A DNA stretch of 27,474 nucleotides from a virus. The translations under genes were made by a program, and so were the position numbers. Location: positions 1 through 27,474 of the IMG/VR virus record IMGVR_UViG_3300037225_000538. One strand, given 5' to 3'. Positions within the stretch are counted from its first letter, which is position 1. Every line of letters starts with the position of its first letter. The notes beneath the pieces are model-generated. The model did not search any database, had not been told where the DNA came from, and saw nothing but the letters and a program-made list of their open reading frames with translations. Below are positions 1 to 15,400 of this stretch, in pieces.

Positions 1-1
1 G

Positions 2-118
2 CACATGACCCCGCCTGCGCCTGCCTTCACGGACTTCGACAGCATGCCGGACGACCCGATGGACGACGAGGATGAAGACGACATTGGTGCGGAAGCGGAC
101 GAAGAAGACTTCAGTTAG
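2..118 (+). CDS. C-terminal end of an acidic protein (partial, cut by left edge)
   Basis: The reading frame is open from the left edge to a TAG at 116-118, giving the last 38 residues of a protein. The tail is extremely acidic: nearly half of the final 25 residues are Asp or Glu, and it ends EEDFS. Acidic, disordered C-termini ending near an aromatic residue occur in single-strand DNA-binding proteins, and the next genes include a helicase, so an SSB-like protein is possible. The canonical DDDIPF-type tip is absent, however, and the domain-bearing part lies outside the window, so the identity is open. Confidence 0.55.
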   Translation, partial: HMTPPAPAFTDFDSMPDDPMDDEDEDDIGAEADEEDFS

Positions 119-163
119 CAAATGGGCTTTGAGGGTGATGTCCTGAAAGTCTTATCCCACCTA

Positions 164-173
164 ACCGTATAAT
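164..173 (+). promoter_or_regulatory. Putative phage promoter, ACCGTATAAT copy 1
   Basis: This is an exact copy of the 10-mer ACCGTATAAT, which contains a perfect -10 hexamer. It lies 20 nt upstream of the ATG at 194. The 31 bp from 161 to 191 match 3145-3175 with only three mismatches, and both copies run straight into the same GGAAAGCAAACC ribosome-binding segment. No TTGACA-like -35 box is visible at the usual distance. Confidence 0.65.
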
Positions 174-193
174 TTACAAGGAAAGCAAACCAA

Positions 194-379
194 ATGGAGT
201 CCGAACATATGCGCTATTTGGGAACACTAGGACTCTTGTCTCAGTGCTCCGTCTACGTTCCTGAAGATATCCGGGAAATGATCGCTATGGCTTTCGATGA
301 CGCTTGCCAGGCAAACCCAAACCTCAGGCAGCGGCGAACTCTAAACCTTTTGGAAATTGAGGCGAACAATGTCAACTGA
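194..379 (+). CDS. Small hypothetical phage protein (61 aa)
   Basis: The ATG at 194 follows a good AAGGAAA ribosome-binding site and a promoter-like element. The 61-residue product is mildly acidic and looks mostly helical; it has no motif or membrane segment that I recognise. Its last 11 nt overlap the start of the downstream helicase gene, whose GAGG ribosome-binding site lies inside this ORF, so the two are probably co-transcribed and translationally coupled. Its place as first gene after the promoter suggests an early-expressed accessory of the replication genes, but that is inference only. Confidence 0.6.
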   Translation: MESEHMRYLGTLGLLSQCSVYVPEDIREMIAMAFDDACQANPNLRQRRTLNLLEIEANNVN

Positions 380-2432
380 CTGGAGAACCGCCGCGCAAGT
401 CCGCGTCGAGTCCAAGGGCGGGCCATCTGACAAGGTCCTCTGCCCGGATTGCGACGGGCCGATGACCCTCCGCACTTCTCAACGTGGAAGCTTTTATGGT
501 TGCAGCCGCTTCCCGTCCTGCCGGGGAACCCGCAAGGTCAGCGAGGAGACCAAGTTCGTCCCCGCCGCCGGAGCGGGCTACGAGCCGATGGTCAAGATGC
601 CCGGCTCTGACGAGCAGGAAGCCATCTGGGACTACCTCGCGAAGGGAAAGTCTCATATCATCGTGGATAGCGGTCCGGGCGTGGGGAAGACCTGGGTTGC
701 TTGCCAATGGTGCCTGCGTGCCCCGAAGAGTCAGCAAATCACCATCGTCGCCTTCAACCGCCACATAGCCAAAGAGGCCAATGGAAAGTTGGCTGCGTCG
801 AAGGTGCCAAACGCCCGCGCCCGCACTTACCACTCCCTTGGTTATGGCATTCTGCGGGAGCACTTCAAGAATCTCGGTGACCCTGACGAGAAGAAGATGC
901 AGAACATCTTCGAAGGCCTCTGCCCCGCTCCCATCTTCGGCAAGGGGCAGTGGCGGATGAAGCTGAACCTCGCGGAAAAGCTTGCCGGCTTCGTCAAGAA
1001 CTACCTGATCGACTATCACGCCGCCAACTTCCATGACGAGATGGAGCGGCTGGCCGACCACCACTCGCTGGACTTCAACGGGGAGTTCAACGAGGCGGTC
1101 TTGATAGTTCCCGCAGCGCTGGACAAGTGCAAGCAGCTCGTTGCGTCTAAGATTGACTTCGACGACATGATTTGGTTGCCGGTCGTGCTGGACCTGAAAC
1201 CCCGCTTCGCTCCGCAGCTGATGATCAGCGACGAACTTCAGGATTTGAATGCCTGTCAGCACGAGTTGATGTTTCGAGTCGGAGCCGGACGCCTGATGGG
1301 AATCGGGGACAAAAGACAGTCAATTTATAGTTTCAGGGGCGCTTTGTCTGATTCTATCGACCAGTTGACCGAGAGAATGAAAAACAGTCCGTTGGGCGTT
1401 AAGACTTTCCCGCTGACCATCACACGTCGTTGTCCCAAGAGCCACGTCCGGTTGGCGCAGAACCTGTTCCCCAACATCCAGGCGCTGCCCGACGCACCCG
1501 AGGGCGAGATCCTCTCGATGAAGAAGGACAAGGCCGTCGAGATGATGGCCGCCGGTGACCTAGTGATCTGCCGGGTCAACGCCGAGCTGATCGGCGTCGC
1601 CTATGCACTCATCCGCCGCAAGATCCGTCCGGTGATCAAGGGCAAGGACATCGGCAAGGGTCTTCGCCAGCTGATCGACAAGCTGGAGGAGCGGGCCGTA
1701 GAGAGGCTGGATGCTAACGCCCGCGCCACATACTCTGACGAGTTAGCCGTCATCCGCGAGGAGCTCGGCATCTACGGTCGTGAGGAGGCCGAGCGGTTGC
1801 TCAAGCTGGAGGAAAAGGGTGAGGGCCGCATGCAGAACCTCATGGACAAGTGCTCGTGCATGATGGAGTTCATCGCCAATGCCAAGACCGTCCAACAGAT
1901 CCGCGAAAACCTGGAGTCACTATTCAAGGACGACGACGACGAGGCCAACGCGGTAGTGCTCGGAACTGTGCATCGCTGCAAGGGACTCGAAGCGGAACGA
2001 GTTTTCATCCTCTCTCCTGAGCTAATCCCACATCCCATGGCACGTAAGCAGTGGGAGAAAGATAGCGAGAAGAACTTGGCATGGGTGGCCTCTACCCGTG
2101 CCAAGTTCAACTCCAAAACCGGAGCGGTAGGGTCTCTGATCTTCTGTGGACCTATTCCGGCCATCTTCGGCCAGGGAGCGCCCTCGGCTCCTCCCACTTG
2201 GGGTTCCAGCGGAGATCCCAACGAGCACGAGGTCGGCGTCTTGACCGACGAAAATGCCACCCGCATCGGAACCATCCCGTCGAAGGAATTACTGAAAGAC
2301 TATATCGGAAAAACCAGTAGGAAGGCGCAGTCAAAAGGTCACCTCGTTACCCCCGACGGGTTGCAGCGGCATTTTGATCAGAAAGAGATCGAGCTAGACG
2401 GCGATGCGCTATTGAAAGCCGCCTGCGAGTAA
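369..2432 (+). CDS. SF1A (UvrD/Rep-like) DNA helicase with N-terminal topoisomerase-type zinc finger
   Basis: The predicted role is ATP-driven 3'-5' DNA unwinding in phage replication or repair. Residues 25-51 form a four-cysteine finger (CPDC, then GC..FPSC), typical of the zf-C4 Topoisom domain of type IA topoisomerases. The helicase core follows: Walker A GPGVGKT at about 102-108, Walker B DELQD near 288, motif III GDKRQSIYSF, motif IV with a double Arg (TRRCP), motif V GTVHRCKGLE near 534, and motif VI WVASTRAK near 575. ATG 369 is preferred over TTG 357 because GAGG lies 7 nt upstream of it. The 687-aa product stops at TAA 2430-2432, but the same frame stays open for 30 more plausible codons, suggesting a recent nonsense mutation. 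The helicase assignment is firm; the precise role is inferred. Confidence 0.9.
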   Translation: MSTDWRTAAQVRVESKGGPSDKVLCPDCDGPMTLRTSQRGSFYGCSRFPSCRGTRKVSEETKFVPAAGAGYEPMVKMPGSDEQEAIWDYLAKGKSHIIVDSGPGVGKTWVACQWCLRAPKSQQITIVAFNRHIAKEANGKLAASKVPNARARTYHSLGYGILREHFKNLGDPDEKKMQNIFEGLCPAPIFGKGQWRMKLNLAEKLAGFVKNYLIDYHAANFHDEMERLADHHSLDFNGEFNEAVLIVPAALDKCKQLVASKIDFDDMIWLPVVLDLKPRFAPQLMISDELQDLNACQHELMFRVGAGRLMGIGDKRQSIYSFRGALSDSIDQLTERMKNSPLGVKTFPLTITRRCPKSHVRLAQNLFPNIQALPDAPEGEILSMKKDKAVEMMAAGDLVICRVNAELIGVAYALIRRKIRPVIKGKDIGKGLRQLIDKLEERAVERLDANARATYSDELAVIREELGIYGREEAERLLKLEEKGEGRMQNLMDKCSCMMEFIANAKTVQQIRENLESLFKDDDDEANAVVLGTVHRCKGLEAERVFILSPELIPHPMARKQWEKDSEKNLAWVASTRAKFNSKTGAVGSLIFCGPIPAIFGQGAPSAPPTWGSSGDPNEHEVGVLTDENATRIGTIPSKELLKDYIGKTSRKAQSKGHLVTPDGLQRHFDQKEIELDGDALLKAACE

Positions 2433-2525
2433 CAGGGCGTCTCCGTCGAGGAGTGCCTACGGGAATCTGCAAATGAGATCGCCCGACACGAAGGATTGGA
2501 GGAAAGCGATGAGTGCCCGTTCTGA
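2433..2525 (+). other. In-frame extension of the helicase beyond its TAA stop
   Basis: After the TAA at 2430-2432 the helicase frame continues for 30 sense codons to a TGA at 2523-2525. The peptide reads like ordinary protein (QGVSVEECLRESANEIAR, then an acidic stretch ending DECPF). No start codon or ribosome-binding site would make it a separate gene. If the TAA were CAA, the helicase would end at 2525 and overlap the next gene's start at 2509, as is usual in this genome. A C-to-T nonsense change, a sequencing error or readthrough would all fit. Confidence 0.45.
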
Positions 2526-2808
2526 ACTTTACAAATCTTTACTGAAGAAAGAAAACTTGTTCGAAGAGCTAAAAGATGCATTCTTGAAAATGGAACCACT
2601 GTTCCTGCTCCGCCCGCGCGTCGAGTATCACGAAGACTATGGGATCGTCCTATGGTGGACGCTGCCCTTCGAGGAACCTCCATTTGTAGGACGGGGGGAT
2701 TTTGAAGTAGAGTCTGCAGGCGATGGACCTACTCACTGGTCCCCGCTACCGGACCCGAAGTTCATGACCATCAGCGATGGAGGGAAGATTCGCGAGTGCG
2801 AATGGTAA
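2509..2808 (+). CDS. Hypothetical phage protein (99 aa)
   Basis: The ATG at 2509 is chosen over the in-frame ATG at 2473 because a strong GGAGG lies just upstream (2499-2503), while 2473 has no such site. The N-terminus is charged and helical (SARSELYKSLLKKENLFEEL). The C-terminal half is rich in Trp, Pro and Phe (WWTLPFEEPPF), suggesting a small beta-rich domain. No family is recognised. The gene sits between the helicase and another small unknown gene, with only 4 nt before the next ATG, so the group is probably one operon. Confidence 0.6.
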   Translation: MSARSELYKSLLKKENLFEELKDAFLKMEPLFLLRPRVEYHEDYGIVLWWTLPFEEPPFVGRGDFEVESAGDGPTHWSPLPDPKFMTISDGGKIRECEW

Positions 2809-2812
2809 ATCT

Positions 2813-3148
2813 ATGAAATACATAATGTTCAAAACTACTCTTGGTGGAGAGGACCAACTCATACCTGTCATCTTTCCAAAGCAACTGGTCCACGCGCTCG
2901 TTGCCGAGGCGTTGATCCCCTGCCTGATCAAGCACGGCTACCCCATCGAGATTGCCAGCGCTGGAGAGGTCACCATCTTCGGGACGGAGATCACCTGCCA
3001 CGGCAAGTCTGAGACTCTCAAGCTTCACGCCGATCCCAGGGACGCCGCCGTCATCCACAACCACGACTATTGCTTCGGGATAGACATGCCCGAGCAGAAC
3101 GCCGCAGTGAGCGCTCTGCGCAAGCTAATGAAGGAGAAACGGCGCTAA
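2813..3148 (+). CDS. Hypothetical phage protein (111 aa)
   Basis: ATG 2813 lies 4 nt after the stop of the upstream gene. No strong ribosome-binding site precedes it, so start by re-initiation is likely; the longer in-frame ATG 2777 lies inside the upstream gene and also lacks a good site. The protein begins MKYIMFKTTLGGEDQLIPV and looks like a compact alpha/beta domain ending in a basic tail (RKLMKEKRR). It contains HNHDYC and two other His/Cys positions but no motif I can name. The TAA stop at 3146-3148 touches the second ACCGTATAAT promoter. Confidence 0.6.
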   Translation: MKYIMFKTTLGGEDQLIPVIFPKQLVHALVAEALIPCLIKHGYPIEIASAGEVTIFGTEITCHGKSETLKLHADPRDAAVIHNHDYCFGIDMPEQNAAVSALRKLMKEKRR

Positions 3149-3157
3149 CCGTATAAT
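3148..3157 (+). promoter_or_regulatory. Putative phage promoter, ACCGTATAAT copy 2
   Basis: This exact ACCGTATAAT starts on the last base of the preceding stop codon and lies 19 nt before the ATG at 3177. The flanking 31 bp (3145-3175) repeat 161-191 almost exactly, including the ribosome-binding region, which points to a conserved promoter-leader unit. No consensus -35 box is apparent. Confidence 0.65.
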
Positions 3158-3176
3158 CTAACAGGAAAGCAAACCT

Positions 3177-5210
3177 ATGAAAATAGCACCAGTCGAACAA
3201 GTAACAACCTTCAAGACCTTGAAGACCGCAGTAGCAGCGCAGTTCCAACGAATGCTGCCCACCGGCTTATTCCACGTAGATATCGAGAAGGACATGCTCT
3301 GGCAGTCCTATCTGAACAGCTTCCCGGAGGGCTCCAACCCTCTGTACCAGAAGCGCACGGAGCATGACTGCTCGTGCTGCCGAGGCTTCATCCGCACGCT
3401 GGGCAGCGTCGTGACCATCGTCAACGGTGAAATGGTCAGCCTGTGGGACATCAGCGTCGGAGGCCCGTACCAGGCAGTCGCCGACGCGATGTCGGCGCTG
3501 GTCAAGCAGGGCAAAATCGACAACGCCTTCCTCCACACGGAGAAGACTGTAGGCGTTAGCGCCAACCGCCAGCTGCTAGCCGACACTACCGTCAAGACCT
3601 GGGAGCACTTCTTCGTGAACCTCTCGACGGCGGTAGTCGCCCCAGGCCCGGCCATCGGGCCGAAGTTGGCCGAGAGCCGCAGCACCTACGACGTGATGCT
3701 CCGCAGTCTCCAGGAGTTATCCGTTGAAAGCGTCGGCATAGTCCTGGACCTGATCGCGCAGAACTCGCTCTACCGGGGCGAGGAGCAGCAGTTCGCAGTC
3801 TCCAGCTTCTTGACGCTCAAGCGGGAGTTCGACGCTCTGACACCCGAAGCGCGTGAGCTATTTGTGTGGTCGCACGTCGGCTCCACCCCGCAATCCGTCT
3901 CACGCATTCGCAACACCGCCATCGGCACCATGCTCACTGACCTCTCGGGTGGCATGGACATCGAGGACGCGGTCAAAGCGTTTGAGCTAAAGGTTGCACC
4001 CGCCAACTACAAGCGCCCGACCGCATTGGTCACCAAGCGCATGATTGCGGACGCGCAGGTCAAGGTCAACGAATTGGGGCTGGCCTCCGCGCTGGAGCGA
4101 CGATACGCGACCATCGACGACATCACGATCAACAACATCCTGTTCGCCGACCGGACGGCGAAGAAGGCGATGAACGTATTCGACGACTTAGCCAGCCGAA
4201 TTCCGGAGAGCAAGAAGGCACTAGACCGGGTGGAGGAGGTCCCGGTGGAGAAGTTCTTCGCGGACGTGCTCCCGACGGCTGAGTCCTTAGAGATCATGTT
4301 CGAGAACCGGCACGCCAACAACCTAGTCAGTCTGGTCACGGCTGGAGACCCCACCTCCAAGTTGCTGTTCAAGTGGCCCAACCGCTTCTCCTGGTCCTAC
4401 GTCGGCGACCTGACCGACTCCATCAAGGAGCGCGTGAAGCGGGCTGGCGGGCAAGTGGAGGCTGACCTCCGGTGCTCGCTGTCCTGGTTCAACTACGATG
4501 ACCTCGACCTGCACCTGACCGAGCCTGGAGGCAACGAGATCTACTACGCCAAAAGACTTTCTGCTCTGACTCGCGGCCAACTCGACGTGGACATGAACGC
4601 GGGCTCTGGGACCACTCGTAGCGCGGTGGAAAACATCTTCTACCCCAGTAAGGAGCGCATGCGGGCGGGGACCTACATTTTGGCGGTCCACAACTTCTGC
4701 CTGCGTGAGAAGTCCAACGTTGGCTTCGAGGCCGAGATCGAGTTCGGCGGGGTCGTCCACTCGTTCTCCTATGACAAGCCCGTCCGCGACAAAGAAACCA
4801 TCGAGGTGGCGCGATTCAAGTATGACAAGAACGGCTTCGAGATTGTCTCATCTCTGCCCTCCACTCAATCGAGCAAGACGATATGGAGCGTTCCCACTCA
4901 AGTATTTCACCGGGCCAACGTGGTCATGCTCTCCCCGAACCACTGGGATAACCTCTCCATCGGTAACAAGCACTACTTCTTCATGCTCGAAGGTTGCCGC
5001 AACGAGGGGGTGGCGCGGGGGTTCTATAACGAGTTTTTAACGGAGGAGCTATCCAAGCACCGGAAGGTCTTCGAGATCGTCGGAGCCAAGATGAAGACGG
5101 AGGAGTCGGACCGGCAACTGAGCGGCCTCGGGTTCTCCTCAACGCAACGCAACCAACTGCTGTGCAGGGTCAAGGGAAGCCTGACTCGCACGATCAAGGT
5201 CATATTCTAA
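3177..5210 (+). CDS. Large conserved phage protein with C-terminal DUF2135-like beta domain
   Basis: This 677-aa protein begins at an ATG after AGGAAAGC and has its own promoter. The N-terminal part contains a Cys-rich motif (EHDCSCCRGFIR, about residues 62-73) followed by a helical region to about residue 420. From about 430 it carries the pattern LSWFNYDDLDLHLTEPGGNEI with LDVDMNAGSG and VENIFYP, resembling the beta-sandwich of DUF2135/YfaP-type proteins. I recall similar uncharacterised phage proteins with the same EHDCSCC and DDLDLH signatures, usually followed by a roughly 127-aa partner as here. Function is unknown. The Cys cluster could bind metal, and the C-terminal domain could mediate protein contacts. 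Its position among replication genes argues against a virion role but does not exclude one. Confidence 0.7.
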   Translation: MKIAPVEQVTTFKTLKTAVAAQFQRMLPTGLFHVDIEKDMLWQSYLNSFPEGSNPLYQKRTEHDCSCCRGFIRTLGSVVTIVNGEMVSLWDISVGGPYQAVADAMSALVKQGKIDNAFLHTEKTVGVSANRQLLADTTVKTWEHFFVNLSTAVVAPGPAIGPKLAESRSTYDVMLRSLQELSVESVGIVLDLIAQNSLYRGEEQQFAVSSFLTLKREFDALTPEARELFVWSHVGSTPQSVSRIRNTAIGTMLTDLSGGMDIEDAVKAFELKVAPANYKRPTALVTKRMIADAQVKVNELGLASALERRYATIDDITINNILFADRTAKKAMNVFDDLASRIPESKKALDRVEEVPVEKFFADVLPTAESLEIMFENRHANNLVSLVTAGDPTSKLLFKWPNRFSWSYVGDLTDSIKERVKRAGGQVEADLRCSLSWFNYDDLDLHLTEPGGNEIYYAKRLSALTRGQLDVDMNAGSGTTRSAVENIFYPSKERMRAGTYILAVHNFCLREKSNVGFEAEIEFGGVVHSFSYDKPVRDKETIEVARFKYDKNGFEIVSSLPSTQSSKTIWSVPTQVFHRANVVMLSPNHWDNLSIGNKHYFFMLEGCRNEGVARGFYNEFLTEELSKHRKVFEIVGAKMKTEESDRQLSGLGFSSTQRNQLLCRVKGSLTRTIKVIF

Positions 5211-5225
5211 CGAAAGGAAAATTAC

Positions 5226-5609
5226 ATGTTTGAAAAAGCCGCACGCTTGAAATTACGGTTCGAAACACAGAAGGGTCCGCTGTCCGTCGAGGATCTGTGG
5301 GACCTGCCCTTGTCCGGCAACGGGCTGAACCTCGACAAGATCGCGATGGCGCTGTCCCGCCAGCTCAAGGAGGAGTCCACGGAGAGCTTCGTGCTGAAGA
5401 CGAGCCGGAGCACCGACGTTCTCCAACTGAAGTTCGACATCGCGAAGCACATCATCGACGTTCGTCTGGCGGAGATCGAGGCGGCGAAGGTTAAGGCCGA
5501 GGTGCGTGCCAAGAAAGACCGCATCCTGTCAATCATCGAGCGGAAGCAGGACGAGCAGCTCGAAGGCCAGCCGCTAGAAGACCTGCTCAAGATGGTCGAG
5601 TCGCTGTAA
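5226..5609 (+). CDS. Conserved phage protein, partner of the upstream large protein (127 aa)
   Basis: The gene starts at ATG 5226, 15 nt after the large upstream gene, behind AAAGGAAA. The sequence starts MFEKAARLKLRFETQKG and contains VEDLWDLPLSG, then a helical, strongly charged region (about residues 70-110) that may form a coiled coil, and ends in an amphipathic helix. I recall this arrangement as a widespread, uncharacterised phage family found next to the 677-aa type gene, so the two products may act together. No catalytic motif is visible. Confidence 0.65.
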   Translation: MFEKAARLKLRFETQKGPLSVEDLWDLPLSGNGLNLDKIAMALSRQLKEESTESFVLKTSRSTDVLQLKFDIAKHIIDVRLAEIEAAKVKAEVRAKKDRILSIIERKQDEQLEGQPLEDLLKMVESL

Positions 5610-5621
5610 GGACAGCTCAAC

Positions 5622-5825
5622 ATGAGCAACCTCATCACGCAAGATGAAGCGGAAGCCTTGTTGGCAGGAGTCCCAGACGGCTTCCTAACCGCCGAGCAGC
5701 TGGACCAGCATCGGGAGCATCTCGCCGAGGTAGAAGCCGAGGGCGCTTGGCTGCGGCACGCCGAGAACCTCGGCTGGGAAGAAGCGATGGAGGAGAGCTA
5801 CCGCGAGAGCGGTCTGACCGTATAA
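5622..5825 (+). CDS. Small acidic hypothetical protein (67 aa)
   Basis: The ATG at 5622 follows AAGGA. The product is very acidic and predicted almost entirely helical (SNLITQDEAEALLAGVPDG at the N-terminus, EEAMEESYRE near the C-terminus). It closes the operon that begins at 3177. Its last codons and TAA stop are formed by the third ACCGTATAAT element, so gene end and promoter overlap. No family is recognised; small acidic phage proteins are often protein-binding modulators, but nothing here shows that directly. Confidence 0.6.
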   Translation: MSNLITQDEAEALLAGVPDGFLTAEQLDQHREHLAEVEAEGAWLRHAENLGWEEAMEESYRESGLTV

Positions 5826-5826
5826 T
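5817..5826 (+). promoter_or_regulatory. Putative phage promoter, ACCGTATAAT copy 3
   Basis: This exact ACCGTATAAT is embedded in the end of the preceding gene. The next convincing start codon is the helicase ATG at 6211, so transcription from here would make an untranslated leader of about 380 nt that contains hairpins and the dispersed repeat. Confidence 0.6.
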
Positions 5827-6210
5827 GAAAACAAGGGAGCAGGTGACGGCGTTTATGACCAAAGAGCCAACGAATCATAAACCTCCGCTCGGCGGCACAC
5901 GAGCGTTGAGTCCGAGCCGTCCGATGTCTGTAGCATCGTGGAATGCCTGCTCCCGCAGCCTTCCGTCGGGCCAGATCGGGGAGGATTTGCTCTCCGCCCC
6001 CTCCGCTGCCGACGGCTGCCCAGATGTCCTGTTTCGGGTCTTCTCTTGCTCCGGAGGACCCGAACGGGGCGTCGGCGGACTAATTTCTCTTTCCCGGAAG
6101 CCCCTAGGATCGTTTTCTTGGTCGTTTTTAGCCCCTAGGACGCGTCGGAGGGACCTCCCCCAAGGGTTTATACCCCCCGGACCCCCAGAGGCGCTTAAAT
6201 CACCTCCCAG
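5827..6210 (+). other. Structured non-coding region upstream of the SF2 helicase
   Basis: These 384 bp hold no convincing gene. Both strands have open frames (to 6214 on +, down to 5875 on -), but their products are Ser/Pro/Arg-rich without any family resemblance. Visible structure includes a 6-bp perfect stem at 5886-5905 (CGCTCG/CGAGCG), an 8-bp perfect stem at 6033-6064 (TTCGGGTC/GACCCGAA) enclosing the palindrome CTCCGGAG, and the dispersed repeat at 6095-6198. With a promoter motif just before it, this could be a regulatory leader or a small RNA. Alternatively it could be relic sequence. Confidence 0.45.
6095..6198 (+). repeat. Dispersed direct repeat, copy A (about 105 bp)
   Basis: This segment matches 19701-19807 in the same orientation. 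Conserved blocks in order are CGGAAGC.CCTAGGA at the left end, an exact 18-mer at 6135-6152 (equal to 19742-19759), a small hairpin GGGT-TTAT-ACCC at 6164-6175, and GCGC(C)TTAAA at the right end. Indels between the blocks break every reading frame, so selection is not on a protein. CCTAGGA occurs twice within the copy. It ends 12 bp before the helicase ATG. Confidence 0.75.
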
Positions 6211-7695
6211 ATGAAACCCCCCACGGTGAAGGTCCAGCTCGGCAACCGCTGGGCTGTTTTTGATTGCGACCCCGACGTTCAGGTGCGTTTGAAGAAGTTT
6301 TTCCGGTATTCCGTTCCAGGAGCACAGTTCTCCGAGGCGTATCGTTGCGGGAGCTGGGACGGATTCCAAAATATGCTCCAGCGCGGTCGCGTGGCCACGG
6401 GGCTATTTCTGGAGCAACAAGAAACGCTGGGGAAGAAGTTCCAACTAATCCTCACTGACGAGCGGAGGTCTCCCGCGTTCAAAGACGTTACCTCCATACG
6501 CCAGCTCCGCCCGTATCAAGAGAACGCCTTGGTCGCCATGATCTCCGCATCTACTTGTGGAGGGCTGATCCTGAGTGGAACCGGCACAGGAAAGACGGCG
6601 CTAGCAGCGGCATTCTTCGCCCGTCTGCAAGGGCAGGCTTTGTTCGTTTGCGATGAGTTGGCGTTACTGTCGCAGTCCCGTGCTGCGCTTGCGAAGGATC
6701 TCGGAGAAGAGGTAGGAATCGTCGGCAGCGGAAGGTTCGAACTTCAGCGCGTCACCTGCGCGACGATTCAAACCCTCCACAAGCGGCGGCACACCAGCGT
6801 CTTTCGAAAATGGTTTCGCACGCTGGAAGTAGTCATCGTAGACGAAGTGCATGTCGCGATTAACAAAAGGAATGCGGACGTCATCCAGCAGATCGCCGCC
6901 AAAGCCGTCTTTGGCCTGACTGCAACGTTGGAGGTAGAGAAGCCTCACGTACACTTGCCAGCAGTTGCGATGTGTGGGCCGGTCGTTTTTGAGTACCCGA
7001 TCTCTCAGGGAGTCGAGGACGGTTATCTCAGCGACGGGGTGATCTACCGGGTGGAGTTCTACGACCCGCTGACGGGCATGGCTCCTGCATATCCAACGCT
7101 GGTGGACGGGAAGAAGGTCTGGATCAAGGCGGGGAGTCAGGCAGCCGAGTACAGGAGACGCGTCTGCCTAAACAAGTCGAGGAACGATTGTGTTGAGGGG
7201 ATCGTGCGGGAGGGGCTGAGGTGCGGACGGAAGATCGTGGTGCTGGTGGATTGGAAAGTCCACCTGCGGATGCTGGATAATAGGTTCTCCGACGTAAAAC
7301 ACCGATCTCTCAGCGGTGAAATCAAACCTGCCGCCAGGCTGGAGGCTATGCGGGAGATGGACGCCGGGGAGTTAGACTTGATTTTGGCGTCGAAGGTATT
7401 CGCCAAGGGAGTCGATATACAATCTGTAAATCTTATTCTTGATTGCTGCGGTTTACCCTCCCGAAATAATGCTATCCAACGTTACGGAAGAGGAGTTCGC
7501 AAAAATCAGAAAGAAAAAGTCTTGTTTTACGTTGATATCTTTGATGTCGGAAATCGTTTTGAGGCCGCCGGACGTAGCCGCTTAAAAGCACTGCAAGAAC
7601 TTGGAAGCCCAATCATTCATGAACAGTGGAAAAATGATGCGAAAGCGGTGCTGAAAGCTATGGAGGAAATCAATGGGCCTGATATACCTAGCTGA
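6211..7695 (+). CDS. SF2 DNA helicase, UvsW/XPB-like, with replaced C-terminus
   Basis: The predicted role is ATP-dependent duplex or branched-DNA remodelling in replication and recombination. Residues 1-95 form an N-terminal accessory region; Walker A GTGTGKT lies at 123-129, the DEVH box at 211-214, motif III GLTATL near 235 and motif VI QRYGRG at 423-428. The 494-aa length suits phage UvsW-like helicases. The ribosome-binding site is weak (CCTCCCAG). The last roughly 85 codons are AT-rich, unlike the rest of the gene, and a second, GC-rich version of the same segment lies downstream at 8533-8781 behind the homing endonuclease. I infer that the present C-terminus came in with the endonuclease and that the enzyme is intact because of it. 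Confidence 0.88.
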   Translation: MKPPTVKVQLGNRWAVFDCDPDVQVRLKKFFRYSVPGAQFSEAYRCGSWDGFQNMLQRGRVATGLFLEQQETLGKKFQLILTDERRSPAFKDVTSIRQLRPYQENALVAMISASTCGGLILSGTGTGKTALAAAFFARLQGQALFVCDELALLSQSRAALAKDLGEEVGIVGSGRFELQRVTCATIQTLHKRRHTSVFRKWFRTLEVVIVDEVHVAINKRNADVIQQIAAKAVFGLTATLEVEKPHVHLPAVAMCGPVVFEYPISQGVEDGYLSDGVIYRVEFYDPLTGMAPAYPTLVDGKKVWIKAGSQAAEYRRRVCLNKSRNDCVEGIVREGLRCGRKIVVLVDWKVHLRMLDNRFSDVKHRSLSGEIKPAARLEAMREMDAGELDLILASKVFAKGVDIQSVNLILDCCGLPSRNNAIQRYGRGVRKNQKEKVLFYVDIFDVGNRFEAAGRSRLKALQELGSPIIHEQWKNDAKAVLKAMEEINGPDIPS

Positions 7696-8532
7696 AAACA
7701 AAATCAACGGAAAGTGCTATGTAGGAAAAACCACTGGGCCGTTAGCCAAGCGCTGGCGAGGGCATGTTTACGATGCAAAGTACTCCAAAAGCAAAAATCG
7801 ACTGTTTGCTAATGCTCTCCGAAAATACACCCAAGATGGTTTTACTCTCTCCGTTCTTGCGAAGGCGCCAAACTCACAACTTAGCACAATGGAAAAGATA
7901 TGGATTTTCTTGATGAACTCTATGACTCCTAACGGTTATAACTTGACAGAAGGGGGAGAGGGAGCAGTCGGCTACAAATTCTCTGAAGAGGACCGCAAGA
8001 AAATAAGTGCAGGGGTACGTGCCATTGTAACGACTTCCTTTCGAAGCAAACTTAGTGCCGCACAGAAAGGAAGAAAACATTCCCCCGAAACTCGTCAAAA
8101 AATAAGCCTGGGAAATAAAGGCAAGAATCTCGGAAGAAAACGGTCTCCTGAAACTTCTGAAAAAATTCGCAAAACTATGGCGACTCCGGAAATGAAAAAG
8201 AGATTAAGGGAAGCACACCTCGGGCGCCACAATCCTTCAGAGGAAGCTAGAAAACGTATGCGCGATGCTGCGGTGGGGCGCATACGTTCTCCTGAGACCT
8301 GTCAAAAGCTTAGCGATGCCCTACGAGGGAGAACCTTTTCTGTCGAAACTAGGGAGAAAATTTCCAAAGCAAATAAAGGTAAAGTACGAACCAAAGAAGT
8401 CAAAGAAAAACTTAGTCTAGCCCGGCAAGGAAATCATAACGCATTAGGGTACAAGCACTCAAAAGAAACTCGTAGAAAAGTAAGTGAAGCTGGGAAAAAA
8501 CGTTGGGCTATTTGGAGAAAAAAGAATAAGCG
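7415..8532 (+). mobile_element. Homing insertion: surrogate helicase C-terminus plus GIY-YIG endonuclease
   Basis: The AT-rich segment begins near 7415-7440 inside the helicase gene and ends where GC-rich helicase sequence resumes at 8533. It contains a complete replacement for the helicase C-terminus (to 7695), the endonuclease ribosome-binding site inside that coding sequence, and the endonuclease gene (7673-8536). The right boundary is sharp. The left boundary is set only by the composition change and by where homology to the displaced fragment begins (LILD against MIVD), so it is uncertain by some tens of bases. Confidence 0.7.
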
Positions 8533-8536
8533 ATGA
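7673..8536 (+). CDS. GIY-YIG homing endonuclease with NUMOD3 repeats
   Basis: This is a site-specific DNA endonuclease promoting its own spread. The N-terminal catalytic domain shows a degenerate GIY (LIY, 3-5), YVG at 16-18, Arg27, Glu74 in STMEKIW and Asn90 in GYNLTEGG, closely matching the spacing of the I-TevI catalytic residues. From about residue 105 come eight NUMOD3-type DNA-binding motifs of the form (K/R)-x-S-x-E-T-x-x-K-(I/L)-S. The C-terminus is very basic. ATG 7673 has a strong GGAGG about 7 nt upstream, within the helicase gene, and the ORF overlaps the helicase by 23 nt. Its TGA overlaps the ATG of the displaced helicase fragment (ATGA). Composition is AT-rich compared with its neighbours, indicating transfer from another phage. 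Confidence 0.93.
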   Translation: MGLIYLAENKINGKCYVGKTTGPLAKRWRGHVYDAKYSKSKNRLFANALRKYTQDGFTLSVLAKAPNSQLSTMEKIWIFLMNSMTPNGYNLTEGGEGAVGYKFSEEDRKKISAGVRAIVTTSFRSKLSAAQKGRKHSPETRQKISLGNKGKNLGRKRSPETSEKIRKTMATPEMKKRLREAHLGRHNPSEEARKRMRDAAVGRIRSPETCQKLSDALRGRTFSVETREKISKANKGKVRTKEVKEKLSLARQGNHNALGYKHSKETRRKVSEAGKKRWAIWRKKNKR

Positions 8537-8781
8537 TAGTTGACGCGACCGGGCTTCCGTCAAGAAACAACGCGCTGCAACGCTACGGACGCGGAGCGCG
8601 GAAAGCGAAGAGCCAGGATCTGCTATGGTACGTGGACATTGCCGACATTGGCAACCGTTTCTCCGGCGCGGCACACGCCAGGTTGAAGGCCCTGATAGAG
8701 ATCGGTGCCCCCATCGTATCCGTCAAGTGGTGCGGGAACCCTGAAGAAGTTTTGAATGTGGTTAAAGGAGAATCAGCATGA
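8533..8781 (+). pseudogene. Displaced original C-terminus of the SF2 helicase (82 codons)
   Basis: The frame encodes a second copy of the helicase motif-VI region. Aligned with the C-terminus of the upstream helicase, I count 39 identical residues in 66, including RNNA.QRYGRG, YVDI and GNRF. It lacks the ATP-binding half and cannot be a helicase alone. Its composition matches the main helicase body rather than the endonuclease insert, which marks it as the resident sequence. It has no stop codons. It begins with an ATG overlapping the endonuclease stop and ends with ATGA overlapping the next gene, so it may still be translated by coupling. No good ribosome-binding site precedes it. Confidence 0.8.
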
Positions 8782-9488
8782 GTCTTCCGCTAGTTAGCTG
8801 CATCATGCCCACCCGGGACCGCCCCGAGTTCATGAAGAAGGCGGTAGAGTACTTCTTGCGGCAAACGCACCCAAATAAAGAACTGTTGATCTTAGATGAC
8901 GGAACTAGGTTCGATTCCTTGGTATCTTGGGCAACCGCCTCATCCGACGACAACGATAAGGTTTCCATCCTCCGATATGTTCCAAACTCTAGGTTCAAAA
9001 CCCTAGGAGCGAAGCGCAACTGGTGCGTGAAGCATTCACGAGGCGATCTAATCGCGCATTGGGACGATGATGATTGGTACGAGTCAGAACGATTGTCACT
9101 TCAAGTAGCAGCCATGGGGGATGCCAACGCCGAAATCTGTGGGGTAGAGGCTCCGATCTTTTATGACCTCCCGAGTGGAAACTCTTTTCAGTATCGCTAC
9201 CGAGGGCCGGGCCGCTACCTCTACTCCGCGACGTTGATGTATTCACGGGACTATTGGGCGCGGTCTACGTTCCCCGCCCTCCAGGTGGGTGCATCTACCC
9301 CGTTTGTGTGCGGGCCAGGACGGCTCGACAAAGCCGCATTCATGTCTCCCGACTGGTACACAGGCATCAGCCACCTGAGAAACAACTCCCCCAAAGTGTT
9401 CGGGGCAGCAGAGTTCACGCGATGGGAAGGCGATGTGAAATCCCGCCTCGGCGCAGACTGGTCCTTCTACCAAAGTTTGCGACCATGA
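8778..9488 (+). CDS. GT-A fold glycosyltransferase, family 2-like (236 aa)
   Basis: The predicted role is transfer of a sugar from a nucleotide-sugar donor. The N-terminus VSCIMPTRDRPEF is a typical GT2 start, followed by LDDG at 39-42 and the metal-binding acidic cluster WDDDDW at 95-100. AAAGGAG lies upstream of the ATG, and the start overlaps the stop of the displaced helicase fragment. It has no signal peptide or membrane helix, so it is a cytosolic enzyme. It is the last + strand gene of the left arm and resembles the right-arm enzyme at 19669-20514 in layout (a DDDWY cluster followed by a YxLP motif), so the two may be distant paralogues. Acceptor unknown: virion protein, phage DNA or host glycan. 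Confidence 0.8.
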   Translation: MSLPLVSCIMPTRDRPEFMKKAVEYFLRQTHPNKELLILDDGTRFDSLVSWATASSDDNDKVSILRYVPNSRFKTLGAKRNWCVKHSRGDLIAHWDDDDWYESERLSLQVAAMGDANAEICGVEAPIFYDLPSGNSFQYRYRGPGRYLYSATLMYSRDYWARSTFPALQVGASTPFVCGPGRLDKAAFMSPDWYTGISHLRNNSPKVFGAAEFTRWEGDVKSRLGADWSFYQSLRP

Positions 9489-9491
9489 GTC

Positions 9492-9827
9492 CTATATCAC
9501 TAGTAGTTCCAAACCTAGAATCCCACTGTCCGTCCACTCGAAATCCGTAAGCAAGATCACGGAAAACAGATCGCCCTTCTGCACGGCAAACGGCGACGCG
9601 ACAAACCCAGCGAAGTACTGCACCTCGGTGGTGCCGCCCGCCCAGGTCATCTTCGGCAGTTCTCCGAAAATACTCACGCCGTTCATCAGCACGTCTATCT
9701 CCACTACATCTGTTGAGGGAGGGGTTATTGGTGGGCACCCACCACTGACGGCTACCACGTACAACGAGCACTGCGCCAGATAACCGTTACAAGGTGATAT
9801 CTGCACTCCTGGAAATATGGTCATCAT
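9492..9827 (-). CDS. Small hypothetical protein at the end of the tail operon (111 aa)
   Basis: The ATG at 9827 is preceded by GGAGGGG placed across the stop codon of the upstream tail gene, so translation is coupled. The sequence looks beta-rich with many Val, Gly and aromatic residues (EVQYFAGFVASPFAV) and ends DSGILGLELLVI. It has no recognisable domain. Position directly after the tail-tip protein suggests a small virion or tail-tip component. It converges on the + strand glycosyltransferase with only three bases between the two stop codons. Confidence 0.6.
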   Translation of the reverse strand: MMTIFPGVQISPCNGYLAQCSLYVVAVSGGCPPITPPSTDVVEIDVLMNGVSIFGELPKMTWAGGTTEVQYFAGFVASPFAVQKGDLFSVILLTDFEWTDSGILGLELLVI

Positions 9828-9831
9828 GATA

Positions 9832-11946
9832 TCACCCCTCCGTCATTACCCGTCTTTGTAGATAAAAAACTATGTTTTGACGCACGCGGTCCTTCGGCTG
9901 AGCGATAGAGGAAATCACTCGCTGTAAAAACGCCGCTTCGTTGGAAGTTGCCTGGTTGGCCGAATTGATGGCGGTCACCTGATGCCGGAAGAACTTGCGG
10001 CCAATCTCGTTGCTGTTAACCTGAGTCACCATCATGTTGTCGTTTGCCAGCGGGCGGGCGGTGTTGACCACCAAGCCCATGCCGGGTTCCAACCCGTCCC
10101 TGTCCGTCTGGATCACCACGGTCACGGGACGAACCTTCATGCGCAACAGCAGCCCGTCTGCGATTGCCTGAAGCGTGTCTATGTTGGACACGTCCTTTAC
10201 GTCTACTATCCCCTCAAACAATCCGTTGGCAGCGATCTCCGCATCGTCCTGCGCCCAGGCTATGTAGGAGAGGGGCGTCGGGTACTCGACTTCCAAAACA
10301 TCGCCGGAACCTAAAACTGAATGGGAGAAATTTTGAACGACAGTTGCTGGAGCTAACCATTCGAAGTCGTATGGTTTTAATCCAAAATCTGCAACGTCGA
10401 TCACGACGGCTGGGACCCCATTAACCCGAACCATGGGGCGAGAGTTCAACGGAGACATGGTAATGAAGAAGCGCGTATACCCGTCCCCGTGAAAAGTGTC
10501 CGTCCAGAGCGGGTTGACGGCGGCGTTGTTCCTGACGCCGACGCGGTTGCGGTACTTGCTGGAGTCGTTGCTCACCGTCATATCGATCCAGTTCCCATCG
10601 TTTTGCTGGATGGAGAATGGAGCCGTCAAGTATCCCGTCTCTGCCGGGAAGAGATGCAACACCTTGTTGAAGTCGATGCGCCAGTCCGCGCCGCTCGCCG
10701 TGCAGATGCCGTTGAGAACGTCCGTAGCCGTTATCCAGTTGTAGACCTGATCCCCGAGAGCCACCATCGGGTCCCACTCCCAAACGAAGCTGATCCCGAA
10801 ACGCGGCGTCAAGTAATCGGTGCAGATATGGCCGAACAGGATGGCCGCCAGGTTACCCGCGAAGGCCTGGTACTCTTTGCCAACGATCACCCGGTCGCAG
10901 AGCACCCCGTAGTCAACGCAATTCACGGTGATCTCGTTGCGGGCGGCGCTACCGGTGTAGTCGTACTCGCTCGTGTTGTCCACGACGCCGGCGAACCAGC
11001 GGTACCCGTCGCGGTGCCAGATCACCACTTCCTGACCTTGCTCCGGGCGGTACGGGGTGCCCTTCTGGGTCAGCGTGAAGGAGACCGCGGCCTTGCTGCC
11101 GCCCCCGATCTGCATGGTCCGCTGCACGCCGTTCCCGCCGCTGCCGTCGTCACATTTCACGAACTCCGTACGGTCGGTGTTGTCAATGAATACCGTCAGC
11201 AAGCGGGGGCCGGTTATCAGTATCGCCCCGGTTGTTCCTCCGACGGCTTTAATGAAGCCCCCGAGCACTCCTAGGACGGCACGGATTACCTTCCCGCTGG
11301 CTCCCCCTACGACGTTGATTGTTCCCCCGGTTCCCGTGATAGGAAGGATTGGTACGCCGGACAGAAACGCACCCACTACGAAAACTGCGTTTGAAGGGTC
11401 CACTACAACAGTAACTGCCGGAGTATATGATCCAGGTGCAGAATGAGTTTCCCAGGCAACGCCGATAGCATCGTGACCGTTCGCCTGCGTGGCCACCTGC
11501 GTAGAACCGCCGACCGTGATGGAATCAGCACTCCTATACATGCCCACCAGAGTGACGACAAGAGCATCTGTGGCGGAGGCGGTGATCGTGGGAACCGTTC
11601 CCGCAGCCTGATCGCTAGAGTCGATGACTCCGTTTAATCCCGAAAACTCGGCAACCGCCGTGCATTGATAAGACAGGCCGCCGGATGCTGACCAAGACAC
11701 CGTAAGCGGCCCGCTGGTGGCAGCAATTCTGTACCACAACTGACAGTAGTTTCCACCGACCGTCGGACTGGTAGATCCCGCTTGAGTCCACAAACCTCCT
11801 TGCGTGTCGGAAATCACTACTGAGGATGCAACTCCTTCATACCCTATTCCCACGAGCAGAAGATTACCGGCAGCTACGGGTGACGCGAATGCTTGCGATT
11901 GCGAACTCGAAGAGCTGGCAGCTTGGACAAGATTAGGTATAGGCAT
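9832..11946 (-). CDS. Tail-tip/baseplate hub-like protein with N-terminal beta domain (704 aa)
   Basis: Residues 1 to about 200 are Ser/Thr/Gly-rich and beta-stranded (AGNLLLVGIGYEG, LWYRIAATSGPLTVSWSASG), like the adhesin-type beta-sandwich domains common in phage tail proteins. A Gly-rich hydrophobic linker follows (about 200-245). The rest (TVFIDNTDRTEF, EITVNCVDYGVLCDR, DVLNGICTASGADWRIDF, and a segment near 460 with MTVSNDSSKYRNRV) resembles the gp27-like hub or tail-associated proteins placed after the tape measure gene. It probably forms part of the tail tip or carries a host-binding surface. ATG 11946 has no strong ribosome-binding site. The order tape measure, small protein, this protein fits a siphophage tail module. 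Exact structural role not provable here. Confidence 0.65.
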   Translation of the reverse strand: MPIPNLVQAASSSSSQSQAFASPVAAGNLLLVGIGYEGVASSVVISDTQGGLWTQAGSTSPTVGGNYCQLWYRIAATSGPLTVSWSASGGLSYQCTAVAEFSGLNGVIDSSDQAAGTVPTITASATDALVVTLVGMYRSADSITVGGSTQVATQANGHDAIGVAWETHSAPGSYTPAVTVVVDPSNAVFVVGAFLSGVPILPITGTGGTINVVGGASGKVIRAVLGVLGGFIKAVGGTTGAILITGPRLLTVFIDNTDRTEFVKCDDGSGGNGVQRTMQIGGGSKAAVSFTLTQKGTPYRPEQGQEVVIWHRDGYRWFAGVVDNTSEYDYTGSAARNEITVNCVDYGVLCDRVIVGKEYQAFAGNLAAILFGHICTDYLTPRFGISFVWEWDPMVALGDQVYNWITATDVLNGICTASGADWRIDFNKVLHLFPAETGYLTAPFSIQQNDGNWIDMTVSNDSSKYRNRVGVRNNAAVNPLWTDTFHGDGYTRFFITMSPLNSRPMVRVNGVPAVVIDVADFGLKPYDFEWLAPATVVQNFSHSVLGSGDVLEVEYPTPLSYIAWAQDDAEIAANGLFEGIVDVKDVSNIDTLQAIADGLLLRMKVRPVTVVIQTDRDGLEPGMGLVVNTARPLANDNMMVTQVNSNEIGRKFFRHQVTAINSANQATSNEAAFLQRVISSIAQPKDRVRQNIVFYLQRRVMTEG

Positions 11947-12417: not shown

Positions 12418-15400
12418 TTAGAGTTGATTTTGAACGACGTTCAGTAAGTAGTCCATATCTGCCCGACTAGTGAAGGTGTTGTTCGACACTGTGATGTTGG
12501 TCACGGGGGCAGAGTTGGAGGAGTTTGGAGCGTAAACCGCCGGAGTCGGAGAACTCCAAGATGGAGAGGCAGCCTGGCCAGCTAATAAATCTCCCCGCAG
12601 AAATCCCGCTGCTGCCGTACCTGGAGACGATGCAGACGCCGCAGGCGCCGGCAGTAGAGACCCGCTGGTGTACTCGCCCCCCGCCGCTGTCGCCGCCAAA
12701 GACGTATCCAAGGCAGCAGCCGTCGGCAGTAAAGAATCTCCCTTCAGATATGACCCTGCGGCCGCAACCGTGCTGGAGAGGTCACTCAACTGAGAGGTGG
12801 CAGCATCGGCCTGAGATGCAAGCATGCCAGCGGCGTTCATCGCGGCGAGGATCGTCGTCGTGGAGTCGGCAATGGGCGAGCCTACTCCACTATTTGGGGT
12901 AGCCGACTCAAGTGAATATGACCACGTCACTCCCGCCGCAGTCACTCCCCCCGTGACGTTTCCGTCGGCATCGATGTATACTATGCTGCCGTCGGGGTTA
13001 ACTTTTTGGCTGGGGGAAGTCGTTGCTGTTTGGGCGGAAGCGAGAACGGCTCCTGATGCTTGAGTAACGGATGGAATGTTGGTGGGAACCCAAGACGGCA
13101 GTACCCCGGCTGGAACGGCCGACGACGTAGCAGGGGCATTGGGGTCTACTTGATATCCGGGCGCGGGCGTTAATGTCGAGCCGTTTATCGTCGGAGTCGA
13201 GGGCGGAGTCGGCGTTGGTACCGTATCCAAAAATTGTAGCGTGCCTGTGGTTGTCGAAGTAGCAGCGGGAGTCGATGCTTGAGCAGTCAACGGGGTCGTA
13301 GTTGGAGTGGTGGTTGGAGTGGTGGTTGGAGTCGTGGTTGGAATCGGGGTCGGGGTCGTGGTCGTGGTCGGGGTCGGAGTCGGTGTTGATGTGACGACGT
13401 TGGGTCCCACTACAGGAGCACCGACACTTCCGTAGTCGGTGCCGGTGACCTTCATGGTTATCAGTCTGATCATCGGTCCGATGGCGTTGTAAAGATAATC
13501 CCGAATCTCTGTCGGGGAATCCTTCACATCCGTCAACTGCTCCAGGAGGCTTACTACGTCTCCGAATCCCACGCCGTCCTTCGTGATGTCGGTCAGTGCG
13601 TTGCGGATGATATGGGAGTCGTTGAGCAGGGAATCCCCCTGCGTGACCAATCCGATATTCAGATAGCGAGTGGACTCCTCGATCAGCGAAAGAGTCGCCT
13701 CTTCGTGCATGTTCTGGATCGCTTGGGTTATGGCGCTGGCTATCGCGACGGCGACTCCAACGATGGGCACCGCGCTGAGGGCACCCGACGTAGAAGTGCC
13801 AACTCCGGAGGTAACGCCGCTCGTATCCACTCCCGACCCGGTGTCTCCCCCAACCTGATTCCCCATGCGAGTCGTGGCACCGTTAATGACTTGGCCGGTG
13901 ACCCCGCCAGAACTGGAACTACTCCCGAACATCCCCAAATCCTGTCCCAGAGATGTGGAGATATCTGCGGCGGCGGACTTGATCTGGTCCGCGAGAGGTT
14001 GAAAGAAACCCTTGATGAATGTCGAGAGCAAGTTCTCAGCTAGCTGCTTCCCGATGGTAACCACGTCCTGGCACCAGTTTCCCCACTCCACCAGGTTCTT
14101 GCCGATCATCGTGCTCAGACTATCAAACGCGGTCTGAAAGTCGTTCGAGATCTGAGTGGCGAACTCGACCATCTTCTGCGCCTGCGTCTTCATCGTCGCG
14201 GCGATGTTGGCGTACTGAGCAGCCACGGCGGCGGTCAAGGTTCCACCCGCAGCTATCTGCGCCTCAATCATTTTCTGCCATGCTTGCTGGCCTTGGAGGG
14301 TGGCCGCGTTTCCCGCGTCGGAGATAGCTTGATACGCCTTCGTCACCTGATCGACCGCTTGATTCAACTCCTGCTGTGAAGGAATTCCTAAAAACTTCAA
14401 AGCTCCAGCGGTGGGGTCGGTATTTTGACTAACCGCGTTCGCGGCGTCGAACGCCTTTTGCTGCGCTTGTAACTTTTGGAGCAAAGAAGCCTGCCCTGAT
14501 GCTACCACGGCGGCAGCCTCCGTGACGGCAGCGTTCATGTTTTGCTGAAGCTCTTGAATGGACGATAGTCCGAGAAGTTTCAAGGCTCCACGAAGCGGGT
14601 CAGAGTTTTGAGCCGCCACGTCGGCGGCGTCGAATGCTTTTTGCTGCGCTTGGACTAATTGAATCAGAGATGCTCCGCCAGCGGCGATCAAAGTAGCCAA
14701 TTCCGTTTGGGCGGTGGAAGATGCTTGCTGCAATTCCTGAATGGACGGCAAACCGAATAACTTTAATACATCTCGTAGAGGATCTTGTGCCTGCCCTAAG
14801 GCATTTGCCGCATCGAACTTTGCCTTTTGAGCTACGACCATCTGAGAAAGAGTAGCTCCGCCAGCGGAAATCAACGCCCCCAACTTCTCCGTAGCCGTAG
14901 TCATGTTCTGCTGTAAAACGTCCAGCGTCGGCAGATTAAATAAACCTAAGGCTGCTGCCAATGGATCATTCTGTTGCGCCTGGGCATTCTGTGCGTTGAA
15001 CAACACTTGCTGCGCCGCGAGCATTTGCGCCAACGTGGCTTGACCGGTCGCGGTAATCGCCGCGATTCTAGCAGTAGCATCCGTGACGGCTTGCTGGAGC
15101 TCTACTGGAGATTTGTACGGGACCCCCATCATCTTCAACGCAGCTGCGAGCGGGTCCTGCGCCTGGGCTTGTGCTTCTTGAGCGAGGAAGAGGTTCTGCG
15201 CGGCGGTCATCTTGGCCAAGAGGGTTCCCTGACCAGACAACATAAGGGCGTCCACTGCTGCTTGAGCCTTGTCGACGTTGTTTTGAAGAGTAGGAAGATC
15301 CGGGAGGCCGAGCAGCTTCATAGCGAATAGAAGAGGATCTGCACTCTGCCCAGCAGCCTCCGTCTTGGTGAACAGGGACTGCTGCGCGGCGAACTTCTCT

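Follow-up and report, generated by a model that had tools for sequence, protein, structure and literature searches.

Homing endonucleases (HEGs) normally leave an invaded gene alive, because they are carried within an intron or intein or lie between genes. A set of HEG-linked hybrid genes has been described from fungal mitochondria, comprising atp6 in Allomyces, atp6, atp9, cox2 and nad3 in Glomus, atp9 in Rhizopus and cox2 in Mortierella (PMC3630166). In these hybrids the native gene end is left beyond the endonuclease and resembles relatives more than the copy in place does, and the hybrid is transcribed (PMC3630166), which bears out the original prediction that C-terminal replacement by homing genes is known from these organelles. 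For phages, a review of T4 HEGs describes free-standing GIY-YIG HEGs with intronless homing and co-conversion (PMC2988022); word searches of that review and of a survey of HEGs at phage exchange boundaries (PMC10448857) brought up no case of the fungal kind.

Here we describe such an arrangement in a virus. The window, by which we mean the whole stretch of DNA analysed, is a single metagenomic contig of 27,474 nt (IMG/VR virus record IMGVR_UViG_3300037225_000538, positions 1–27,474) and is a fragment. In it a HEG occupies the best conserved region of a replication/repair helicase, for which it compensates with a spare gene end. We consider it very probable that a unit made up of a foreign, surrogate C-terminus (~93 codons including motif VI) and the HEG entered a native UvsW-like helicase gene just upstream of motif VI, stranding the original 3′ end.

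The hybrid helicase

The helicase ORF (6211–7695, + strand) encodes 494 residues of UvsW/XPB-type SF2 helicase. It has the UvsW_N domain, the SF2 motifs I–VI and the UvsW profile match that define the UvsW type: in Pfam it matches ResIII (E 1e-20), Helicase_C (1e-12) and UvsW_N (5e-6), it also matches phrog_16, and the top PDB match of its profile, built with six viral relatives, is T4 UvsW (2oca). The part assigned as native (6211–7413, +; residues 1–401) carries UvsW_N, Walker A (GTGTGKT), DEVH, TAT and the first half of RecA2, with a GC3 of ~0.7. The remainder (7414–7695, +; residues 402–494), which we call the surrogate, carries motif VI (QRYGRGVRK) and has a GC3 of 0.34.

The original prediction held that the last part of the helicase is supplied by AT-rich DNA running into the endonuclease gene, and the composition agrees. 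In 20-codon blocks, the GC3 of the helicase lies between 0.55 and 0.80 up to 7410 and between 0.25 and 0.40 from there to the stop codon; the fall, from about 0.7–0.8 to 0.34, occurs in frame at 7408–7414. This is also the maximum-likelihood change point, and one equally strong was found in none of 1000 shuffles. The 93-codon surrogate (7414–7692) has a GC3 of 0.344, against 0.713 ± 0.105 (SD; minimum 0.452) for a background of 578 overlapping 93-codon windows taken from the contig's remaining genes and from the native part of the helicase, not one of which is as low. GC3 is 0.39 in the HEG, 0.68 in the body of the helicase and 0.65 in the second C-terminus behind the HEG, and the right-hand change point in GC is at 8530–8545. 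Given the switch on the left and the return on the right, the ~1.1 kb from 7414 to 8532 is a tract of one foreign composition, and both of its ends map to nearly one site of the native helicase.

The hybrid is modelled by AF2 as an SF2 fold (pLDDT 71; the alignment had 7 sequences, which supports the overall fold only), and Foldseek matches of the model are UvsW/XPB-type helicases. In the model the surrogate completes RecA2, contributing a strand (408–411), a helix (418–428), a second strand (437–445) and a second helix (451–463), so that it supplies both the last elements of RecA2 and the helix of motif VI. A complete in-frame 3′ end lies immediately upstream of the HEG; the hybrid helicase remains full length and is probably functional, without splicing.

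The endonuclease and the stranded C-terminus

The HEG (7673–8536, +; 287 aa) has a GIY-YIG domain and four NUMOD3 motifs. It matches Pfam NUMOD3 (1.9e-23) and GIY-YIG (3.3e-7), phrog_314 (6e-40) and NCBIfam TIGR01453 (2e-27), and retains the conserved residues GLIY...YVG, the R of KRWRGH, the E of MEKIW and GYNL. It overlaps the end of the helicase ORF by 23 bp in a different frame and with its own start codon. As had been predicted, its ribosome-binding site lies inside the end of the helicase: a Shine–Dalgarno-like GGAGG at 7662–7666 (+), 6 nt before the ATG at 7673, within the surrogate coding sequence. At the other end its TGA stop overlaps the ATG at 8533, as ATGA.

The ORF that starts there (8533–8781, +) has 82 codons and corresponds to a helicase C-terminus with no ATPase half. 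It aligns with residues 408–485 of the helicase with 41 of 78 residues identical (52.6%; E about 1e-24), 39 of 66 in the first part, which is the GC-rich second version originally reported. At the DNA level the surrogate and native tails are ~63% identical. The left junction (7408–7434), delimited by the GC3 change point and the start of the alignment, is homologous and in frame. At the right junction (8530–8545) the HEG 3′ end meets the native region before motif VI; the alignment of the stranded copy begins at 8533, and its first codon pairs with the helicase codon at 7432–7434. In the alignment no stretch is missing between the left junction region and the start of the stranded copy, as expected for insertion at a single site. 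On composition only, the stranded copy is classed as the putative native one and the in-place copy as foreign.

The first 4 bp of a family-2 glycosyltransferase gene (8778–9488, +) overlap the end of the stranded tail, which indicates that this gene probably lay directly after the helicase before the insertion. Elsewhere in the window, the tape measure protein (12418–18003, −; 1861 aa) has degenerate internal repeats of about 104 aa with 35% identity (14533–14844 and 15271–15582).

Relatives of the helicase

Relatives of the helicase were sought in IMG/VR (2.9 million viral contigs), INPHARED (50,697 phage records), PLSDB (72,556 plasmids) and 84,980 bacterial and archaeal genomes, with the helicase, the stranded copy, both C-termini together and the motif pattern GLPSRxxxxQRxGRG as queries. 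From these collections, which may omit records very near the window, the nearest helicases recovered are less than 30% identical (about 29% at most), and neither an allele free of the HEG (an empty site) nor a donor of the surrogate was recovered. Of 80 viruses collected as carriers of the neighbouring phrog_1735 gene, 50 were searched, and 8 of these gave a helicase match, all of them distant. The sole match to the motif pattern was an antisense chance match and was discarded. The stranded copy had no match in the family libraries searched (Pfam, PHROG and NCBIfam).

A second case in phages

We screened HEG relatives from viral contigs and phage records for a homologue of the upstream sequence just downstream of the HEG in the same orientation. 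Host-gene sequence was found on both sides of the HEG in 2 of the 79 distinct regions, the window and L147 (IMGVR_UViG_3300002220_001387, 1–3602, read on the minus strand). Two further positives proved to be repeats of the HEG itself. Another was set aside as it has no HEG: in L041 (4471–7908) the N-terminal 167 residues of a 421-aa ORF of unknown family are present twice, with 69% identity, on either side of a Thg1-like tRNA-His guanylyltransferase gene; the duplication is a partial one of the 5′ end and encloses cargo other than a HEG.

In L147 the host gene, gene A (2924–1839, minus strand), whose function is unknown, has a complete, in-place 3′ end. The HEG (1075–1842; phrog_314, E 6e-28) lies in the opposite orientation to it. 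The order is gene A, HEG, a 51-codon start of gene B, a second gene A 3′ end and gene B itself, which extends past the end of the sequence stretch. The stranded gene A end has 43 codons and 81% amino acid identity to the in-place end. Three of its relatives, in which gene A is followed directly by gene B, give the empty site, and in L159 a related HEG (70% aa) lies between single copies of A and B with no duplication. The stranded end of L147 is 84.7% identical to L159 and the in-place end 76.5%, a modest difference which suggests that the stranded copy is the resident one. Where the gene B fragment meets the stranded A end, CATGT is present on both sides, and this far junction looks like a micro-homology joint. 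L147 thus fills in what is missing for the window, namely loci without the HEG, an arrangement like that of a donor and a right junction between non-homologous sequences, and its relatives and junction suggest one-sided homing.

The two cases are alike and not identical. In both the HEG lies behind a complete in-place gene end, a stranded second end lies beyond it and the right junction looks illegitimate; in L147, unlike the window, the HEG is on the opposite strand to its host gene, and the insert also carries the 51-codon start of gene B.

In L165 (4068–6969) and in four other loci, gene B (DUF6267, phrog_455) is broken up. The parts are an N-terminal ORF with an intein-like N-part end, a separate ORF of 436 aa and a C-terminal ORF that has its own ATG and opens with an intein-like C-part (...VIIHN|S). 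With these ends the fracture looks like the split-intein type, and the gene B insertions were rejected as a third surrogate case. The gene pair A–B thus shows three different solutions to HEG-type invasion.

Proposed route and alternative explanations

The donor, the cutting site, the order of events and the activity of the enzyme are inferred as follows. In another phage, the HEG would have been the gene immediately after a divergent helicase; in several of the phage genomes examined, the start of a free-standing GIY-YIG HEG coincides with the end of the preceding gene or falls within it. In a mixed infection it would have cut the recipient helicase at a conserved site near 'VNLI/VD'. The left end of the break would then have invaded the donor helicase by homology, copying the donor C-terminus and the HEG, while the right end, having no usable homology or joining too early, would have been ligated end-to-end to the copied strand, the recipient tail staying in place. 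The product would begin with the recipient gene, continue with the donor's gene end and the HEG, and close with the gene end of the recipient; the recoded surrogate and the split site would both guard against re-cutting.

Several lines of evidence favour entry of a surrogate end together with the HEG. The two share a low GC3 whereas the stranded copy and the helicase body share a high one; the Shine–Dalgarno sequence of the HEG is inside the surrogate, and neither the GIY-YIG domain nor the NUMOD3 motifs of the HEG have been lost; the AF2 model gives the hybrid an SF2 helicase fold; and there are both a similar architecture in L147 and the fungal mitochondrial precedent (PMC3630166). The cassette first proposed, inserted at the motif-VI region, agrees with the composition and the reading frames as well as with the alignment and the family assignments. 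The conditions first named as refuting it yielded no counter-evidence, in searches that reached helicases of less than 30% identity. An assembly chimera, in which an AT-rich phage carrying the HEG and a relative from the same sample were joined at the conserved motif-VI sequence, would suit the source of the window, an IMG/VR fragment, and a left junction in conserved sequence. It would, however, need two independent mis-joins within 1.1 kb, the left one in frame and the right one joining the HEG 3′ end to non-homologous helicase sequence, for which overlap assemblers have little reason; the flanks on both sides have the composition of one genome, and the like architecture of L147 is in another contig. 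We regard a chimera as quite unlikely. Tandem duplication of the helicase 3′ end in situ, with later HEG insertion and then divergence, would account for two homologous copies in tandem, and partial duplications are known in phages (that in L041, for example), yet the copies are distinct not only in sequence but also in base composition, in which the low-GC one resembles the HEG and not the genome. Moreover, an amino acid identity of 53% with both frames open implies a long time, over which the stranded copy has had no visible use, and this history appears very unlikely.

It is also highly improbable that 8533–8781 is an independent small gene, encoding a motif-VI domain protein that acts in trans and merely resembles a helicase tail. 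The frame is open for 82 codons, its ATG overlaps the HEG stop and a GGAG lies 15 nt upstream, so that re-initiation is possible, but it lacks the ATPase half, the insertion point falls at its first codon, and no free-standing homologue, or copy without a helicase, was found among phage records, viral contigs and genomes. That the HEG resides in a self-splicing intron or an intein, the mature helicase using the C-terminus at 8533–8781, might be thought from the NCBIfam label of the nuclease ('group I intron endonuclease') and from the frequency with which phage introns carry HEGs. There was, however, no Rfam match at E ≤ 1 within 5000–10000, and RNA folding of 7420–7672 was no better than that of shuffles (z 0.01), so there is no support for an intron. 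The separate start of the HEG, in a frame other than that of the helicase, excludes an intein, and Pfam found no Hint/intein domain. Because the HEG overlaps the last 23 bp of the helicase ORF, neither an intron core nor intein blocks could be accommodated, and a whole C-terminus is already present in the upstream copy. As far as sequence can tell, we consider splicing of either kind extremely improbable, in keeping with the original view that the gene stayed functional without it.

Comparison with known systems

To our knowledge, no HEG insertion is known in T4 UvsW. The window helicase shares with T4 UvsW (2oca) the UvsW_N domain and the SF2 core, though sequence identity between them is low. 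Like the free-standing GIY-YIG phage HEGs (the T4 Seg family; phrog_314), the HEG of the window combines GIY-YIG and NUMOD3, is free-standing and lies beside a conserved phage gene; the usual cases are intergenic, whereas this one separates the body of a gene from its original end.

The original prediction took the pattern to be unfamiliar for phage helicases. This stands as regards the open-access literature, in which we found no phage description of a HEG with a surrogate and a stranded end (weak evidence, as such searches are), but in view of L147 the arrangement is probably not unique to the window. The case is moderately interesting alone and more so if it recurs: recurrence would account for stranded C-terminal fragments beside phage nucleases that are annotated as 'split genes' or pseudogenes, and would provide a mechanism for making chimeric phage enzymes. 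We suggest only tentatively, leaning somewhat against it, that free-standing phage HEGs can settle in conserved core motifs of working genes without splicing, via one-sided homing; this would add a recurrent third route to those by intron and by intein, and would generate hybrid phage proteins.

The closest counterparts are the fungal mitochondrial hybrids (PMC3630166), which have the same in-frame foreign 3′ end, followed by a HEG (GIY-YIG in Glomus atp9) and then by the stranded native 3′ end. They differ from the window in that its host is a phage DNA helicase, not a mitochondrial membrane-protein gene, and in that its two copies have 53% amino acid identity against 91% in Glomus atp6. The native copy is identified by composition in the window and by relatives in the fungi. 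The locus extends the fungal mitochondrial pattern to tailed-phage-like viruses.
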